The notes under the pieces: model-generated
Databases searched by the model: none
What the model saw: only the letters and a program-made list of their open reading frames with translations
Told to the model about the DNA's origin: nothing
IMG/VR virus record: IMGVR_UViG_3300008219_000053
Location: 1 to 32,525 of that record
Source of the DNA: a virus
DNA: 32,525 bases
Strand: one strand, 5' to 3'
Translations under genes and position numbers: made by a program
Part shown: one piece after another, positions 1,336 through 32,418 of the stretch
Numbering within the stretch: position 1 is the first letter of the stretch
Layout: the number at the start of each line of letters is the position of its first letter

Positions 1336-2430
1336 TTATTTTCCCACCTCGCTTAGCACGACTTGCATCAGGGCCTGCCGCAGCCCCTCGCCGTCCACCT
1401 CTTTGCGGAGTTCGCTGCCAGTGACACACCTGAGAGGGATAACCCGGAACTGGTGGGGCAGGGTAACGTCACTTGGTGTCTCCGGGCAGAGGTTCAGGAC
1501 ATAGGTGGTTACGCCTGCACCACGCTTGCGCTGCCACTCCGCTGCCGCATCGGCATCCTTCTGGCTTTCGAACTCACCATCAGTGAGGATGATATCCAGA
1601 CGCGGGCTACCTATGAGGTTGCGCCTCACCTCTGTGTCGTACATACTCTCGATCAGGGGTGCTAGGTTTGTCTGGACTGCATCGGTGCGGCGGGGGTTCT
1701 CAACAACCATGCGCTGCATCGCTTGGCGTACCATCGCAAGCCGCCTCCGTTGACCCCTGCTACCAGTGTGCACATGGGCAATGCGGTTGTAGCTATACGC
1801 ATCCCATGTGACACCGGGCCACTTGCTGGCTGCGACAAACAGAACCTCCATTAGGTTGTTAGCGACATCCTCCATAGCCGCGGCGCAGTACCCGGTAACA
1901 GGCATATGTGTTGAGCCTGAGTTGTCCACCGCTATGTTAACGTGCTTCTCGTACCCTCGCGCACCTAGTCGCTCCTCTCCCCACCCAGAGCCATCAGTCA
2001 GCAGGCCCACGGGATCGTCAAGCCACTCACCCTCGTCTAGGTTCTCCAGTTCGTGGCTCCTAGTGGCTGACTCAAGGGCAGCTACAAGTGCGTCTGCCTC
2101 GTGCACCATGCGTATCTTACGCTCGTTACCCAGCAGTGCCTGAGCACCGTTCTCACGAGAGTCCTTGTAGACAGCACTCTCGATCTCTGCCTTAGTCATC
2201 GTGGACTCGTTGTATTCCTCAGTCATGCCCTCCCTGATAGCCATACGGGTTTCATCATCAACGTCACCCAGCACATCCAGAATACCCCTGAGCTTGTGAT
2301 CCAAGTAGAACGCTACCAGCTCATCCTTCCTCGCCTCTGCGGCGTAGGTGCTGAAGGCTCTGCTGCGCCCACCACTAATGCGGCTGCTGCCCTGTCGTGC
2401 CTTGGTGTATCCCTGATCTGATCTAGCCAT
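1336..2430 (-). CDS. cobT-like: VWA-domain protein, CobT-like, partner of the adjacent AAA+ ATPase
   Basis: A 364-residue protein with a C-terminal von Willebrand factor A domain holding a complete metal-ion-dependent adhesion site: DNSGS at residues 169-173, threonines at 249 and 254, and TDGE at 283-286. The N-terminal half is charged and helical. VWA proteins encoded beside MoxR-type AAA+ ATPases act as a chelatase-like or remodelling pair. In cobalt chelatase the pair is CobS (ATPase) and CobT (VWA), and CobS/CobT-like proteins are known in many phages, where their role is unsettled. The ATPase gene lies directly upstream with an 31-base AT-rich gap. A GGAGG site precedes the ATG. No CobN-like large subunit is in the window, so a cobalamin role is not demonstrated here. 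Confidence 0.85.
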   Translation of the reverse strand: MARSDQGYTKARQGSSRISGGRSRAFSTYAAEARKDELVAFYLDHKLRGILDVLGDVDDETRMAIREGMTEEYNESTMTKAEIESAVYKDSRENGAQALLGNERKIRMVHEADALVAALESATRSHELENLDEGEWLDDPVGLLTDGSGWGEERLGARGYEKHVNIAVDNSGSTHMPVTGYCAAAMEDVANNLMEVLFVAASKWPGVTWDAYSYNRIAHVHTGSRGQRRRLAMVRQAMQRMVVENPRRTDAVQTNLAPLIESMYDTEVRRNLIGSPRLDIILTDGEFESQKDADAAAEWQRKRGAGVTTYVLNLCPETPSDVTLPHQFRVIPLRCVTGSELRKEVDGEGLRQALMQVVLSEVGK

Positions 2431-2461
2431 TTCATACCTCCAAAAATATTTTTATTTTTTT

Positions 2462-3475
2462 CTACCCTGAGTAATCTCGTGCCGTCCAGACGGCCTTGAT
2501 AACCGCCGCGACGGCGTTGCGCTCGTGCTGCACATCGATCTTGGTGAGGATTGAGGTTGTTAGCATATCCCGGAAGGGTGTCTTGGTCAGGTCTGCCATC
2601 TTGGCAGCCGCCAGTGCCCGGCGAGGAGATATCTGGTAGCTGATCCTCTGGCCTTCCCATGCTACGTACAGACGCTCGATCATCATAACCGCATCGGGTA
2701 TGTAGGCCTTCCTGACTTTGTGTGCCCTGAGCATAGCCGTCAGGCCCTCACCCAACAACGGTGGCACGGTGATAGACCAGAACCTGTCACGCAATGCCTC
2801 GTTCATGAGCTTGGTGCCTTGGTAGCCGGGGTTCCGGGTAAGAAAGCACCGGAAATCCGGGTGCACCTCGATAGCCCTACCGCCTACCACAAAGGTAGAG
2901 CCTATGGTGCCGGGGCGGTCAAGCATACCATTGAGGAACCCCAGTGCGTCAGGCTCTGCCATGTTGGCCTCGTCTATGAGTGCCCAGTCACCGTTTTTGG
3001 CGGCACTCGCAAACTCGCTGGCCTGAAATACAGTACGTCCACCTATCAACTCACGGGTGCCTACTAGGTCACGCTTCCTCAGGCCACCATCAGCCGTGAC
3101 TACTGCCAGCCTGCGGCCCTGCGCCGCTGCTAGGTGGTGCACAGCCAATGTCTTCCCACTCCCGGCTGGCCCCATTAACTCGACATGGCCAATGGTCACA
3201 GCCGCAGTCAGTTCCTGATACCACGGCGGCAGCACATAGCTGCCGTTAATGTCAGCGGTGCCGGGCGGCACGTCAGGCCAGATGACCTGTTCCCGATCCT
3301 CTACAGGTGGTGGTGTCAGGGTGGTGACAGGGTCCATATGGACTGACGGCCCGTCTCTGTAATCGTCAGCCAGAGCGGCCACAATTATAGACTTCTTGGC
3401 CGATGCTATCCCTGCGGCGGTTGCCATGCGCCGCAGGTCATGTATGCTAAGTGCCTCTAGGTGTGCTCTATCCAA
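2462..3475 (-). CDS. cobS-like: MoxR/CobS-like AAA+ ATPase with SAP-like N-terminus
   Basis: This 337-residue ATPase has Walker A GPAGSGKT (residues 102-109), Walker B LIDEAN (166-171), a sensor-1 asparagine in FLTRNPGY (211-218) and an arginine-finger region EALRDRF (226-232), the standard order for the MoxR/CobS group. Residues 4-36 form a short helix-turn-helix pattern (LxxLSIHDLRRMATAAGI) resembling SAP or Rho-N domains, which bind nucleic acid; this is by eye. The start is TTG, with AGAGAGG upstream. The VWA partner follows directly on the same strand. Together they probably form a ring ATPase plus metal-binding adaptor that remodels an unknown target. The extra N-terminal domain hints that the target involves DNA or RNA. 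Confidence 0.88.
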   Translation of the reverse strand: MDRAHLEALSIHDLRRMATAAGIASAKKSIIVAALADDYRDGPSVHMDPVTTLTPPPVEDREQVIWPDVPPGTADINGSYVLPPWYQELTAAVTIGHVELMGPAGSGKTLAVHHLAAAQGRRLAVVTADGGLRKRDLVGTRELIGGRTVFQASEFASAAKNGDWALIDEANMAEPDALGFLNGMLDRPGTIGSTFVVGGRAIEVHPDFRCFLTRNPGYQGTKLMNEALRDRFWSITVPPLLGEGLTAMLRAHKVRKAYIPDAVMMIERLYVAWEGQRISYQISPRRALAAAKMADLTKTPFRDMLTTSILTKIDVQHERNAVAAVIKAVWTARDYSG

Positions 3476-4746: not shown

Positions 4747-4775
4747 CCTCGCTTTCCTATCTAATTTGTGCCTAT
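4747..4775 (-). repeat. Intercistronic stop/ribosome-site cassette, copy 3
   Basis: On the minus strand this starts with TAGGCACAAATTAG, where TAG is the stop of the 264-residue gene, and ends in GGAAAGCGAGGTT, six bases before the TTG of the nuclease-like gene. It is more diverged in the middle than copies 1 and 2 but keeps both ends. Confidence 0.7.
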
Positions 4776-5566
4776 GGGATCGCTTCAATGACTATGCTGG
4801 GGGTATTTGGCCGCAGATTGCCGGAGCACAGGCCGCATTTGTTGCAATTTGTGCGGCCGCTAGCCTCCGGGCACACCATTTCATCAGCTCGTGGAGCTTC
4901 GCCGACCGCAAGTACTCGGTAAGTACGAAATCCCATGCTGTGGGCCTTATCTAGGGCACTGTCTACGTCCGGCCATGTTATGGGATCAATGCTGGCCATT
5001 GTGTATTCTGCCAGCTCTGGGAAGTTTTCCCACTGGTGTGTATAGCTCGTGAGTTTGCTATCCAGCATTGATAACAGATCGCGCCACACCCAGTCAGGCA
5101 CACTGGCCGGGTCTCCATATGCACCTAGTCGAACACCTAGTGGTTTTCCGGGATTCTTGCATAGTCTGCGCGGATGTGTCTTGGCACAGTCACAGGACTT
5201 GAGTGAAGATATCAATTCGCTAGCTTCCAATGGCGTAATGCTAGCCACATTCCCAGCTTTCCAAGATTTCCATGCTCCTTCAGGGCCTCTCCACTTGTCC
5301 ACGTAGCAAGGTATATTGCTTTCACCTGCCGTCTTAAGTTGCTTTGCGATAATCGGCCGTAGAAAACAACTTCCACACACGGCTTCATCCGATCCCGTAG
5401 TTACTGCAATTGTAGGGGATTCGTGCCTATGTAGGATGAATACTTGGATCATATCCAAAGTCTTGCCATTGATCGACCTTTGGTCAAAGGCGGAAGCTAG
5501 GACAATGATATCGTCAGTGTCTGACGTGTTCCGGCCATCATAAAGCAATCGACTATTCACGTTCAT
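4772..5566 (-). CDS. Cysteine-rich conserved phage protein (GAYGDP / YTHQW / CNKCGLC)
   Basis: A 264-residue protein with clustered cysteines: CGSC (64-67), C87, CDC (125-127), C136, C232 and CNKCGLC (241-247). Between them are GAYGDP (148-153) and SYTHQW (174-179). I recognise this arrangement from phage proteins of unknown function, especially of actinobacterial and environmental phages. The final CxxCxxC could bind zinc or an iron-sulphur cluster; this is inference. The TTG at 5581 is in frame, but the ATG at 5566 has GAGGAG seven bases upstream and is preferred. It is the first gene leftward from the control region and so probably the first expressed. Confidence 0.78.
   Translation of the reverse strand: MNVNSRLLYDGRNTSDTDDIIVLASAFDQRSINGKTLDMIQVFILHRHESPTIAVTTGSDEAVCGSCFLRPIIAKQLKTAGESNIPCYVDKWRGPEGAWKSWKAGNVASITPLEASELISSLKSCDCAKTHPRRLCKNPGKPLGVRLGAYGDPASVPDWVWRDLLSMLDSKLTSYTHQWENFPELAEYTMASIDPITWPDVDSALDKAHSMGFRTYRVLAVGEAPRADEMVCPEASGRTNCNKCGLCSGNLRPNTPSIVIEAIP
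5419..5430 (-). repeat. Extra copy of the 12-mer ATAGGCACGAAT inside a gene
   Basis: The cassette's stop-end 12-mer recurs exactly here, but inside the coding frame of the cysteine-rich protein (read as HRHES), not at a stop codon. The recurrence argues that the DNA or RNA sequence itself may matter, apart from the stop codon. Confidence 0.55.
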
Positions 5567-5596
5567 TGATTCACTCCTCAAGCTAAGATTGTAGGC

Positions 5597-5625
5597 ATGC
5601 TAGCACACTATGTGCCATGCTGCAA
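5597..5625 (-). promoter_or_regulatory. Candidate leftward promoter
   Basis: On the minus strand TTGCAG (5620-5625), a 17-base spacer and TAGCAT (5597-5602) lie about 30 bases before the ATG of the cysteine-rich gene at 5566. The -35 match is weak (3 of 6) and the -10 match moderate (4 of 6), but position and spacing fit. Confidence 0.4.
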
Positions 5626-5638
5626 TAGGTATCACGAT

Positions 5639-5703
5639 ATTGGTGCTGTGGTAGCTGTAGGGTGCTTGATAATTGGTGCTGGAATAGGAGCTGGTAGGGT
5701 GCT
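5639..5703. repeat. Two imperfect direct repeats
   Basis: The segments 5639-5666 and 5672-5703 each begin with ATTGGTGCTG and end with GTAGGGTGCT, with a variable middle. They lie just upstream of the candidate leftward promoter and could be regulator sites for leftward genes. Confidence 0.55.
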
Positions 5704-5838
5704 AGTGGGGGAAAGTTAACAGTCGACCGCAGCAGTACCAAAAGGGCCCGGTACCGAAACTTAGCACCACTCAGGCGGCAGGGCCTTTTTGCGGTATAAG
5801 GAACGGGTGCTGCGCGCTTCGGAAACACTACAATGGCT

Positions 5839-5885: not shown

Positions 5886-5962
5886 GATGATGGGTATGGC
5901 TTAGAGTTCTTCTGGTCTTAATAGGGGTACCCCCGACAGACTTTTGTCGCTAAAGGCTTCCG

Positions 5963-5991
5963 TTGACACAGGTCCTTGGTTGCTGTACTTT
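5963..5991 (+). promoter_or_regulatory. Rightward (late) promoter candidate
   Basis: TTGACA (5963-5968), a 17-base spacer and TACTTT (5986-5991) form a plausible promoter facing the virion gene block. The -10 box is overlapped by the first 17-bp palindrome (5987-6003), so a protein bound there would block or modulate initiation. Confidence 0.5.
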
Positions 5992-6003
5992 ACTCGGTAA
6001 AGT
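5987..6003. promoter_or_regulatory. Operator-like palindrome, copy 1
   Basis: A perfect 7-3-7 inverted repeat, ACTTTAC-TCG-GTAAAGT, lying over the -10 box of the rightward promoter candidate. The same arms recur at 6052-6068 with a different 3-base centre. Confidence 0.65.
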
Positions 6004-6051
6004 GGAGTAATGTTACTAGTAAAGTTTTTAGTTTCGTGCCTGAGGTGTGTT

Positions 6052-6068
6052 ACTTTACTGAGTAAAGT
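6052..6068. promoter_or_regulatory. Operator-like palindrome, copy 2
   Basis: A perfect 7-3-7 inverted repeat, ACTTTAC-TGA-GTAAAGT, with centre 65 bases from copy 1. It merges into the tandem AGTAAAGTGG repeats to its right. Conservation of arms but not of the centre is what a dimeric regulator site would show. Confidence 0.65.
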
Positions 6069-6093
6069 GGAGTAAAGTGGAGTAAAGTAAAGT
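6061..6093. repeat. Tandem AGTAAAGTGG direct repeats
   Basis: AGTAAAGTGG at 6061-6070 and 6071-6080 is followed by AGTAAAGTAA and AGTG. These iteron-like half-sites share the GTAAAGT arm of the operator-like palindromes. Further GTAAAG half-sites lie around 6018-6024. Confidence 0.7.
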
Positions 6094-6114
6094 GAGTTAC
6101 TGTAGCTGTTACTT

Positions 6115-6164
6115 TACTTTACTTTACTACTACCCCCCCCTTAAGGGGGTAGTAAAGTAAAGTA
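6115..6164. terminator. Large bulged hairpin with CCCCC/GGGGG core, upstream of terminase genes
   Basis: The arms pair over about 19-20 bp (ACTTTACTTT...ACTACCCCC with GGGGGTAGTAAAGTAAAGT) with one 3-base bulge at 6126-6128 and a 7-base loop. It is almost symmetric, so it would act in both directions. It lies between the rightward promoter candidate and the first late gene, where a terminator would make late expression depend on antitermination. No uninterrupted U-tract follows, so terminator activity is unproven. Confidence 0.5.
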
Positions 6165-6217
6165 GTAAGTAATAGTAATAAGTAATAGTAATGTGGTTAG
6201 AGTAAAGGAGGAGTTCC

Positions 6218-6742
6218 TTGCCAGATCCTGCTAAGAAGGTTAGGCGTGTTATGACGGCTAAGGAGAAGAAGTCGTTAGGCGAGTTGGATGAGAGGACACA
6301 GAAGAAGAGGAGGAATCAGGAGAAGTTCCTTGAAGGATTGAAGGAGACAGGGACGATACGGAATGGGTTGCGTAGGGCTGGTGTGATACGGTGGACGTAC
6401 AGGGAGTGGATGGAGGATGACCCCACGTTCCCTGACAGGGTACTGGATGCACGGCAGGAATTTGCGGAGGCATTGGAGGAGGTTGTCGTGGGAATTGTTA
6501 TGGACCCGGACACGGTGAAGAAGGTTCCCATCTTGGCAATTACGCTTTTAAATGCTAATCTGCCTAATAAGTATCGCCCGACTGCGATTGTGCAGGATGA
6601 GGCGGCTAGGGATTTGCTCAGGGAGTGGAGGAAGGCTGCGAGGGAGCACCCACAGGAGGTTGCACAGGTGGCCAAGAACTTTGAGACTCCGGTGGACCAG
6701 CAGATTGATGAGATACTGAAGAGGAAGCAGGGTGGTGGATGA
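6218..6742 (+). CDS. terS: Terminase small subunit (candidate)
   Basis: A 174-residue, highly charged protein. Residues 36-85 carry the TerS-type helix-turn-helix pattern (FLEGLKETGTIRNGLRRAGV, then a WxxDPxFxDRVxxAxxEFAEALEE helix), which in terminases binds viral DNA before cleavage. The large terminase follows three genes later. The start is TTG, but a very strong AAGGAGGAG ribosome site lies just before it and no better in-frame ATG exists upstream. The stop overlaps the next ATG as ATGA. It is the first gene of the late block. Confidence 0.78.
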   Translation: MPDPAKKVRRVMTAKEKKSLGELDERTQKKRRNQEKFLEGLKETGTIRNGLRRAGVIRWTYREWMEDDPTFPDRVLDARQEFAEALEEVVVGIVMDPDTVKKVPILAITLLNANLPNKYRPTAIVQDEAARDLLREWRKAAREHPQEVAQVAKNFETPVDQQIDEILKRKQGGG

Positions 6743-7264: not shown

Positions 7265-7545
7265 CTACTAATGTGAACCAGATCAGGGAATGGTTGTCGG
7301 GATGGAACGGGGAAGCCCTGCTGGCAGATGGTTTCGAGGATGCCATAGTAGGGATATGCGAGAGGTTCGGGGCTGTGCCTGTTGTGGCGTATGACAGGGA
7401 TAAGTGTATAGAGATACTTATGGATCGGGACGGTATGGAAGACGAGGAAGCGGTGGAATATTTTGAATTTAATGTTGCGGGGTCTTATGTAGGAGATGGT
7501 ACCCCTGTATTCCTGACACTGTGGGATAAAGAGGAAAGTGGATGA
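7261..7545 (+). CDS. Conserved small phage protein upstream of large terminase
   Basis: A 94-residue acidic protein matching a common phage family of unknown function: DGFEDAIVGICERFG in the first half, VVAYDRDKCIEILMDRDGM in the middle, then EEAVEYFEFNVAGSYVGDGTP. It is usually of this length. It is coupled by ATGA overlaps to both neighbours. No catalytic residues are evident; a regulatory or adaptor role is only a guess. Confidence 0.78.
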   Translation: MTTNVNQIREWLSGWNGEALLADGFEDAIVGICERFGAVPVVAYDRDKCIEILMDRDGMEDEEAVEYFEFNVAGSYVGDGTPVFLTLWDKEESG

Positions 7546-8891
7546 CTACTGCCACTAAGGAAACTCTCACTTCGTACCTGTATGACAGGGTGGGATTCAA
7601 GCCCACTCCTTCACAGGAGATAATACTGGCATCGCCGCACCGGTTCAACCTTGTTGCGGGCGGTGAGCAGGCAGGGAAGTCGATGATAGCGGCGAAGTAC
7701 CTGCTGGCTAGGTTTCTGGAGACGGAGGGCAAGGGACTTTACTGGCTGGTGGCTGCGGACTACGAGAGGACACGGGCAGAGTTCACATACCTTGCGGAGG
7801 ACTTCGAGAAGCTGGGAGTACTCAAGGAAGTTTCCAAGCGTGTAGACCCCGGCCACATCACGCTGGTGGATGGCACACTGATAGAGACAAAGTCGGCGAA
7901 AGACCCAAGGACTCTGGCCATGCGTGCGCCCGATGGGATACTGGGATGCGAGGCAAGCCAGCTAGACATGGAGACATTCTTCAGGATGAGGGGCAGATGT
8001 GCGCCGAAGAGGGGATGGATGTTCCTTGCAGGGACATTTGAAGGGAGCCTTGGGTGGTATCCCCAGATGTTTACCGCTTGGGCTTCGGGTGCAGAGCCTG
8101 ATGCTAGGGCTTTCTCCCTGCCGAGTTATACAAACTCCCACCTGTACCCGGGTGGTGCCAATGACCCGGAGATTCTGAGACTGAAGGAGGCATCGAGCGA
8201 TGACTTCTTTATGGAACGTATTGAAGGCAAGCCTTCTCCACCTCGTGGACTCGTATTCACGGAGTTTCGACCTGATATGCACATCAGTGAACTCGAATAC
8301 GACCCCGGATCTCCCGTGCACCTGTGGATGGACCCCGGATATGCAGGGGCATACGCCGTCGAAGTCGTGCAGGTCAGGGGAGAACAGATTTGTATTATTG
8401 ATGAGATATATGAGCAGGGACTGGTGACCGACGAGATCATAGATATCGCACGGAGCCGACCGTGGTGGAAGGATGTCCACTTCGGGGTAATAGATATAGC
8501 AGGGACACAGCATCAGGCTATGGCCGCACCCACCGAGGTGTGGCTGGCACAGACAGGGCTGTACCTTTCAAGCCAGAAGATCAGGATTAACGAGGGAACG
8601 GAACGGCTCAAGGGGTGGCTCAAGGTGGATGCCAAGACCCACGCCCCGAGGATAGTCTTCTCCCCTAAATGCAAAGGGGTGCTGTCCGAGTTCGGTGCCG
8701 TTGCGTCTCCTATAGACGGTCAGACACGGGCATATAGATGGAAGGTTGACCGTGATGGTAATATAGTGGGTGATACGCCCGAAGATAAGAATAACCACGG
8801 AGTGAAGGCTTTGATATACGGGTTAGTAGACAGGTTCGGCTACGGGTATGTGGAGCACAGGAATAAAATTGCCGTAAAGCGGTGGAAGTAG
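7542..8891 (+). CDS. terL: Terminase large subunit
   Basis: A 449-residue packaging motor. The N-terminal ATPase has Walker A GGEQAGKS (40-47), a Walker-B-like GILGCEASQ with glutamate 137, and a coupling motif near FLAGTFEGSLGWY (161-173). The C-terminal RNase-H-fold nuclease shows D264 in LWMDPGY, D318 in FGVIDIAG, and an acidic cluster before NNHGVKALIYGLVDRF (about 414-432). It translocates DNA into the procapsid through the portal, which is encoded immediately downstream, and cuts it. GAGGAAAG precedes the ATG, which overlaps the upstream stop. Confidence 0.93.
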   Translation: MTTATKETLTSYLYDRVGFKPTPSQEIILASPHRFNLVAGGEQAGKSMIAAKYLLARFLETEGKGLYWLVAADYERTRAEFTYLAEDFEKLGVLKEVSKRVDPGHITLVDGTLIETKSAKDPRTLAMRAPDGILGCEASQLDMETFFRMRGRCAPKRGWMFLAGTFEGSLGWYPQMFTAWASGAEPDARAFSLPSYTNSHLYPGGANDPEILRLKEASSDDFFMERIEGKPSPPRGLVFTEFRPDMHISELEYDPGSPVHLWMDPGYAGAYAVEVVQVRGEQICIIDEIYEQGLVTDEIIDIARSRPWWKDVHFGVIDIAGTQHQAMAAPTEVWLAQTGLYLSSQKIRINEGTERLKGWLKVDAKTHAPRIVFSPKCKGVLSEFGAVASPIDGQTRAYRWKVDRDGNIVGDTPEDKNNHGVKALIYGLVDRFGYGYVEHRNKIAVKRWK

Positions 8892-32068: not shown

Positions 32069-32418
32069 GTGTCTCAGGGGCAGGGTAAGGGACACAAGAG
32101 AAAAAAATAAATATAGAAACTGGTTCTCCTGCGTATAGATCGTTCTCCCTGCCCCACATTACTTTACTACCCCCCTTAAAGGGGGGTAGTTAGTAAAGTA
32201 CCGGGAGAGTCAGCCCCTCTTACAACGTATCGTGGTTAGCTCCTCCGTGTACGTCACGGCCAATCTTTTCCGGGATCAGACCCCACTACCGGGGCTTGGT
32301 GTGGGGGAAAGAGGAAGGATTTGGCACCTTATCCCTGAGCTGTTTCACCGTGACTCTCCCGATGTAGACTATTATACACTATCCTATCTCCGCCACGTCT
32401 ATATTATCCTAATTCCTC
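32069..32418. other. Convergent intergenic region without a convincing gene
   Basis: About 350 bases between the last rightward gene and the leftward zinc-ribbon frame. It contains a perfect 9-bp inverted repeat GGGGCAGGG (32077-32085) / CCCTGCCCC (32147-32155), the A-rich AAAAAAATAAATATAG (from 32101), the bulged CCCCCC/GGGGGG hairpin and a CCCCAC/GTGGGG stem (32281-32306). A 75-codon plus-strand frame (32232-32459) lacks a ribosome site and overlaps the zinc ribbon, so it is not called. Confidence 0.7.
32160..32200. terminator. Bulged hairpin with CCCCCC/GGGGGG core, bidirectional terminator candidate
   Basis: TACTTTACTACCCCCC pairs with GGGGGGTA...GTAAAGTA around a TTAAA loop, about 16 bp with one 4-base bulge (32191-32194). 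Core and arms match the hairpin at 6115-6164. Here it lies between convergent gene blocks, where a two-way terminator would be expected. Confidence 0.55.

Follow-up and report, generated by a model that had tools for sequence, protein, structure and literature searches.

The window, by which we mean the whole 32.5-kb stretch of DNA analysed here, is a record of an uncultured virus, a marine phage whose relatives come from deep-ocean viral contigs. A cis element, mapped in Table 1, separates its leftward early genes (encoding phrog_2554 family, AAA+ and VWA proteins) from rightward late genes, which follow the order terS, a PDDEXK protein gene, a gene for a 94-aa protein, terL and structural genes. 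The predicted model of TerS, of low confidence, gave a weak fold match to Sf6 TerS; that of the phrog_2554 left neighbour was good, with no PDB match at E ≤ 0.001. At 1336–3475 a VWA-domain protein (weak Pfam match) adjoins a CobS/MoxR-like AAA+ ATPase, a pair also present in contig G024. Our searches found no close cultured relative, and no host assignment was obtained.

A prior reading made from the letters alone (the sequence-only reading) had recognised no regulator gene. This holds within the window. Contig G001, almost the same in sequence and with identical proteins, reaches 4.7 kb further left and does encode HTH proteins. Its left arm carries genes for an AAA_25 helicase, a PDDEXK nuclease, an HTH_17 protein and another protein that is HTH-like by eye. 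Such left-arm genes are visible in only about ten contigs.

Table 1. Features of the element and its neighbours, in window coordinates
Feature	Position	Strand	Description
Divergent left neighbour, phrog_2554 family	4772–5581	−	Left of the element in many relatives
Bipartite block	5890–5955	+	GGGTATGGCTTA (to 5903)-N24 (5904–5927)-TACCCCCGACAGACTTTT (5928–5945)-TAAAG (5951–5955)
Late promoter (probable)	5963–5991	+	TTGACA 5963–5968, 17 bp, TACTTT 5986–5991
Palindrome 1	5987–6003	.	ACTTTAC-TCG-GTAAAGT = ACTTTACTCGGTAAAGT; perfect; over promoter −10; from sequence and alignment
Palindrome 2	6052–6068	.	ACTTTAC-TGA-GTAAAGT = ACTTTACTGAGTAAAGT; perfect; also perfect in L015, L006, L009 and L010
Tandem iterons	6060–6093	+	Unit GAGTAAAGTG, period 10 bp, 2.9 copies at 6060–6088
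Hairpin	6109–6174	+	Core arms 6115–6130/6149–6164; apex C-run, TTAA, G-run; 3-nt bulge on 5′ arm
terS (small terminase subunit)	6218–6742	+	PHROG 4044, E 6e-11; HTH at ∼37–65
terL (large terminase subunit)	7542–8891	+	PHROG 2, E 3e-22; synteny anchor
Second hairpin	32159–32200	+	TTACTTTACTA-C6-TTAAA-G6-TAGTTAGTAAAGTA; intergenic, near the record's right end; ACTTTAC/GTAAAGT arms

Palindromes, block and probable late promoter

The sequence-only reading had described two perfect 17-mers with centres TCG and TGA, the second running into tandem copies. Both are present, spaced 65 bp, and the 10-bp iterons begin inside palindrome 2. Its extent for the feature (5987–6093) proved too narrow, as the unit spans from the block (5890–5955) to the hairpin (6115–6164). 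On its own a perfect 7-N3-7 palindrome is not unusual, whatever its sequence: about two are expected per window and six were found. ACTTTAC/GTAAAGT is the sole 7-mer that recurs among them. Its half-sites are strongly clustered, with 13 of the 18 in the window falling within 177 bp (5987–6163), and about three would be expected in the entire window.

About 100 related loci were gathered by TerL and pattern searches. They share a near-invariant bipartite block with the consensus GGGGYATGGCTTR-N24-KATACCCNTGMCARAMTTTT-N6-TAAAR, whose second part begins KATACCC. With a range of 18–30 allowed, the gap is 24 in 91/96 cases and 25 in 5/96. The block alignment took in 90 relatives, some fetched by the block pattern itself (gap 12–40) and others through TerL alone, so that its base frequencies are somewhat biased. 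A few chance hits aside, the block precedes terS-terL, with its orientation preserved, in nearly all relatives. It is conserved separately from the array of palindromes and iterons beside it, and may plausibly be a terminase cutting or packaging site. Some farther relatives have the block and no clear array; two of them, L112 and L160 (minus strand), have the block between terS and terL, where it runs over the 3′ end of terS. Relocation of the block away from structural genes was considered for G024 and rejected: its flank matches that of L171, where terS, terL and portal follow the block. G024 was left out since it may be chimeric.

A perfect TTGACA occurs within 230 nt past the block in 35/41 nearer relatives, compared with 2.9 expected, and the late promoter is therefore probably real. 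Its −35 in the window matches the consensus fully; its −10, TACTTT, is weak (3/6 to TATAAT), and a consensus promoter scan of the window did not list the TTGACA/TACTTT pair. Placement of the palindromes over a late promoter, as the sequence-only reading had it, thus stands for the nearer clade but does not extend to the farther one, where only 1/29 relatives have TTGACA and the array is still there. For this reason regulation of the late promoter is unlikely to be the array's entire role.

Promoter control could still be the main one, if the palindromes are operators for a phage repressor or activator at the late (and leftward early) promoter, diversified in the manner of immunity systems. In favour of such a transcriptional switch, the −10 of a conserved TTGACA promoter lies under palindrome 1, and a top motif k-mer overlaps the −10 in 16/41 nearer relatives; the 7-3-7 symmetry suits a dimeric HTH protein, and HTH genes lie in the left arm. 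We nevertheless think it unlikely, because the farther clade has array and hairpin almost without TTGACA, both persist when terS is far away, and the rest of the genome holds no further operators, one hairpin excepted. Nor would a repressor site need a bulged 21-bp hairpin, and no integrase was recognised by eye among the proteins read. Known phage operator arrays (the lambda operators, the L5 stoperators) resemble the present sites in their short palindromes, of which one here lies over the −10. They differ in that the present sites form a single cluster with a hairpin, not a dispersed set, and persist without the promoter.

Motif switching of array and hairpin

Situated where early and late genes diverge, ahead of terS-terL, the conserved element has the array as its AT-rich middle. 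The array's palindromes change from virus to virus: GTAAAGT, AGTAAT, ATAACATGTTAT, TTACATGTAA, GTTTCA..TGAAAC and ATTGCAAT are found. The classes of top repeated 6-mer include CTTTAC, AGTAAT/GTAATA, ATAACA, CATGTA, GAAACA, ATTTCA and ATTGCA. L015 has both palindromes perfect at the same 65-bp spacing as the window, L006, L009 and L010 have one perfect copy each, and the copies in L013 are imperfect; the palindromes are thus retained in close relatives. In L007, L017 and L016 quite different repeats or palindromes occupy the same frame. Palindromes at equivalent places in close relatives, or other palindromes in the same frame, fit the earlier impression of a site for a dimeric regulator or initiator.

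In nearly all contigs tested, a virus's own motif occurs elsewhere in the contig at about chance level. Where terS has moved 1–2.3 kb downstream (L143, L164, L179, L185, L146, L148), array and hairpin remain at the block. A scan for the 17-mer, as suggested together with the sequence-only reading, matched 120 contigs, of which only L241 (=L015), L003 and L305 (=L006) had TerS/TerL homology and a dense array. Nearly all of the rest had isolated matches, and the 17-mer was given up as a search key.

Most relatives have a stable hairpin past the array. That of the window is imperfect, of ∼21 bp, with a lower stem built from the array motif (z = −4.9 as ssDNA); detection used RNA energies. Among nearer-clade hairpins (n = 30) the mean stem is 20.8 pairs, G-T pairs make up 2.2%, and 29/30 have their unpaired bases (the bulge) on the 5′ arm. 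Several GAAACA-type viruses instead carry it on the 3′ arm. Hairpin and array switch motif in step: k-mers of the lower stem match the virus's own array with a mean of 0.81 versus 0.25 (permutation p = 1e-4). Moreover, five viruses (the window, G023, G025, G044 and G012) have a second hairpin with their own motif, and these second hairpins hold the same orientation in oppositely transcribed regions. The match of lower stem to array, together with the motif in the second hairpins, suggests one binder for all parts. The near-absence of G·T pairs and the fixed orientation argue for a role at the DNA level.

These last properties also bear on the idea that the hairpin acts in the 5′ UTR of the late mRNA, in antitermination or stability, with the repeats incidental. 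A stable fold between promoter and terS is what an RNA leader calls for, but G-U pairs are almost nil, the second hairpins keep their orientation in regions transcribed the other way, the promoter is missing from the farther clade and no Rfam family matched; we consider an RNA leader highly improbable.

Contigs L005, L014, L018, L021, L058, L063, L081 and L082 start inside or beside the hairpin, probably from assembly failing there.

Candidate binding proteins and a possible packaging site

TerS was found at 94/95 loci. Motif similarity, taken from k-mer profiles that are a crude measure and from contigs that are fragments, correlates with similarity of TerL (rho 0.35) and of TerS (0.32). Once TerL is accounted for, TerS keeps a partial correlation with motif of 0.11 and its recognition helix one of 0.02; because the relatives share phylogeny, Mantel-type p values do not count here as independent evidence. 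TerS and motif dissociate both ways. L143 and L148 have TerS proteins 84% identical, with the same recognition helix, yet a motif similarity of 0.02, and L129 and L146 have the same motif with TerS proteins only 35% identical. TerS was accordingly rejected as the array binder. With the motif at about chance level elsewhere, a dispersed regulon is disfavoured as well.

This dissociation tells against a packaging site (cos or pac), in which the terminase would cut at the block and TerS would bind the array, as in lambda-like cosN/cosB. In lambda, 21 and N15 a conserved cosQ/cosN stands beside a variable cosB (PMC4669245), and the element has a similar layout, a conserved block adjoining a variable array, placed ahead of terS-terL and pointing the same way in nearly all relatives; repeats at 10-bp spacing would suit a TerS ring. 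Unlike lambda-like cos sites, the element has variable repeats that the TerS recognition helix fails to track, a constant part that is bipartite with N24, and a hairpin, with a second one elsewhere. Contigs pass through the block without a shared end, and motif-bearing hairpins also lie far from the terminase. Neither direct terminal repeats nor a common contig end were found as evidence of a packaging end, and contig ends near the element are best explained as assembly breaks at the hairpin. Taken with these points, a packaging site made up of block and array is distinctly unlikely.

In a farther subgroup (L117, L113, L158, L164, L143, L135) a small HTH protein with a zinc motif is encoded right after the array. 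It was rejected as binder because it is absent from the window's clade, and because similar recognition helices, compared by eye, go with different motifs. The left-arm HTH_17 protein was rejected since, read by eye, it diverges among viruses with the same motif. HTH candidates lie 6–9 kb from the array and, by eye in the roughly ten contigs with a left arm, show no visible tracking of the motif. The sequence-only reading had left room for a host-encoded binder. This is unlikely, as the motif changes completely between close relatives.

A possible replication origin

We tentatively regard palindromes, iterons and hairpin as one cis element, an iteron-type replication origin or control region at the early/late boundary, a reading that comes close to probable and falls slightly short of it. 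Several results point to it. The motif is confined to the locus. The element is AT-rich, its lowest 80-bp GC window equalling or approaching the minimum of the whole contig in most long contigs, and the divergent gene blocks meet there, as does the cumulative GC-skew minimum in most long contigs, a coincidence that gene direction alone could explain. Array and hairpin stay by the block when terS is 1–2.3 kb off. Genes for the AAA_25 helicase, the PDDEXK nuclease and HTH proteins are present in the left arm. The reading is weakened by the constant position beside the terminase, which is typical of packaging sites and not of origins, and by those farther relatives (such as L112) with no clear array. 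No consistent DnaA boxes were found, and the distance of the HTH candidates also counts against it.

From the architecture, conservation and motif switching read in the sequences, we infer how such an origin might work. A putative phage-encoded dimeric DNA-binding protein, other than TerS, would occupy the repeated half-sites and bend or melt the AT-rich array, exposing the hairpin. Replication would then be loaded at the exposed hairpin by a RepA-like AAA_25 helicase module encoded in the left arm. In the window's clade the same binder would also lie over the late-promoter −10, where repression could couple early/late expression to initiation.

Hairpins beside iterons are known from the IncQ/RSF1010 oriV, which has ssi hairpins. 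Another iteron origin is the RepA_N origin of PLE, whose RepA illustrates iteron binding by a mobile-element initiator (PMC7145576). The element shares with both of them repeated semi-palindromic non-coding sites and a RepA-like helicase in the genome. It differs from these iteron origins in that the array has no linked initiator gene, many unrelated motifs occur within one phage group and the element adjoins the terminase. In function the nearest precedent is the origin of lactococcal Ceduovirus (c2-type) phages, which lies between divergent early and late blocks and comes in three mutually unrelated sequence types (PMC7150918). Both are non-coding and occur in several unrelated versions in otherwise similar phages. 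The Ceduovirus origin requires an early transcript that is non-coding, and it supports replication without phage proteins (PMC7150918), whereas the present candidate origin combines palindromic iterons with a bulged hairpin and a fixed block.

A bolder version, somewhat unlikely in our judgement, is a control element shared by the whole phage group, in which the fixed bipartite signal goes with a cassette made up of the iterons, the lower stem of the hairpin and the distant second hairpin. All parts of the cassette would switch recognition sequence together between close relatives, driven by a candidate binder that may recognise the folded ssDNA hairpin. The locus would then be an origin/packaging junction of a new kind, whose self-recognition changes rapidly.

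If the origin reading is true, a group of uncultured deep-ocean phages marks its replication start or early/late switch with a recognition word that alters completely while its surroundings stay. The viruses would offer a natural series of matched sites and putative binders for studying how protein-DNA specificity evolves, and for asking whether mutual exclusion occurs among such phages. A compact DNA signature for finding these viruses in metagenomes is provided by the fixed block.

Two minor observations concern the left side of the element. In L153 (2086–2841) the phrog_2554 ORF has its C-terminal half before its N-terminal half, as if circularly permuted, or as if the gene were rearranged or misassembled. 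Between the left gene and the block (5600–5720 in the window) lies a low-complexity stretch, also present in L033, L030, L048 and L053; depending on the relative it is rich in GT or in CA, so that its strand bias flips.
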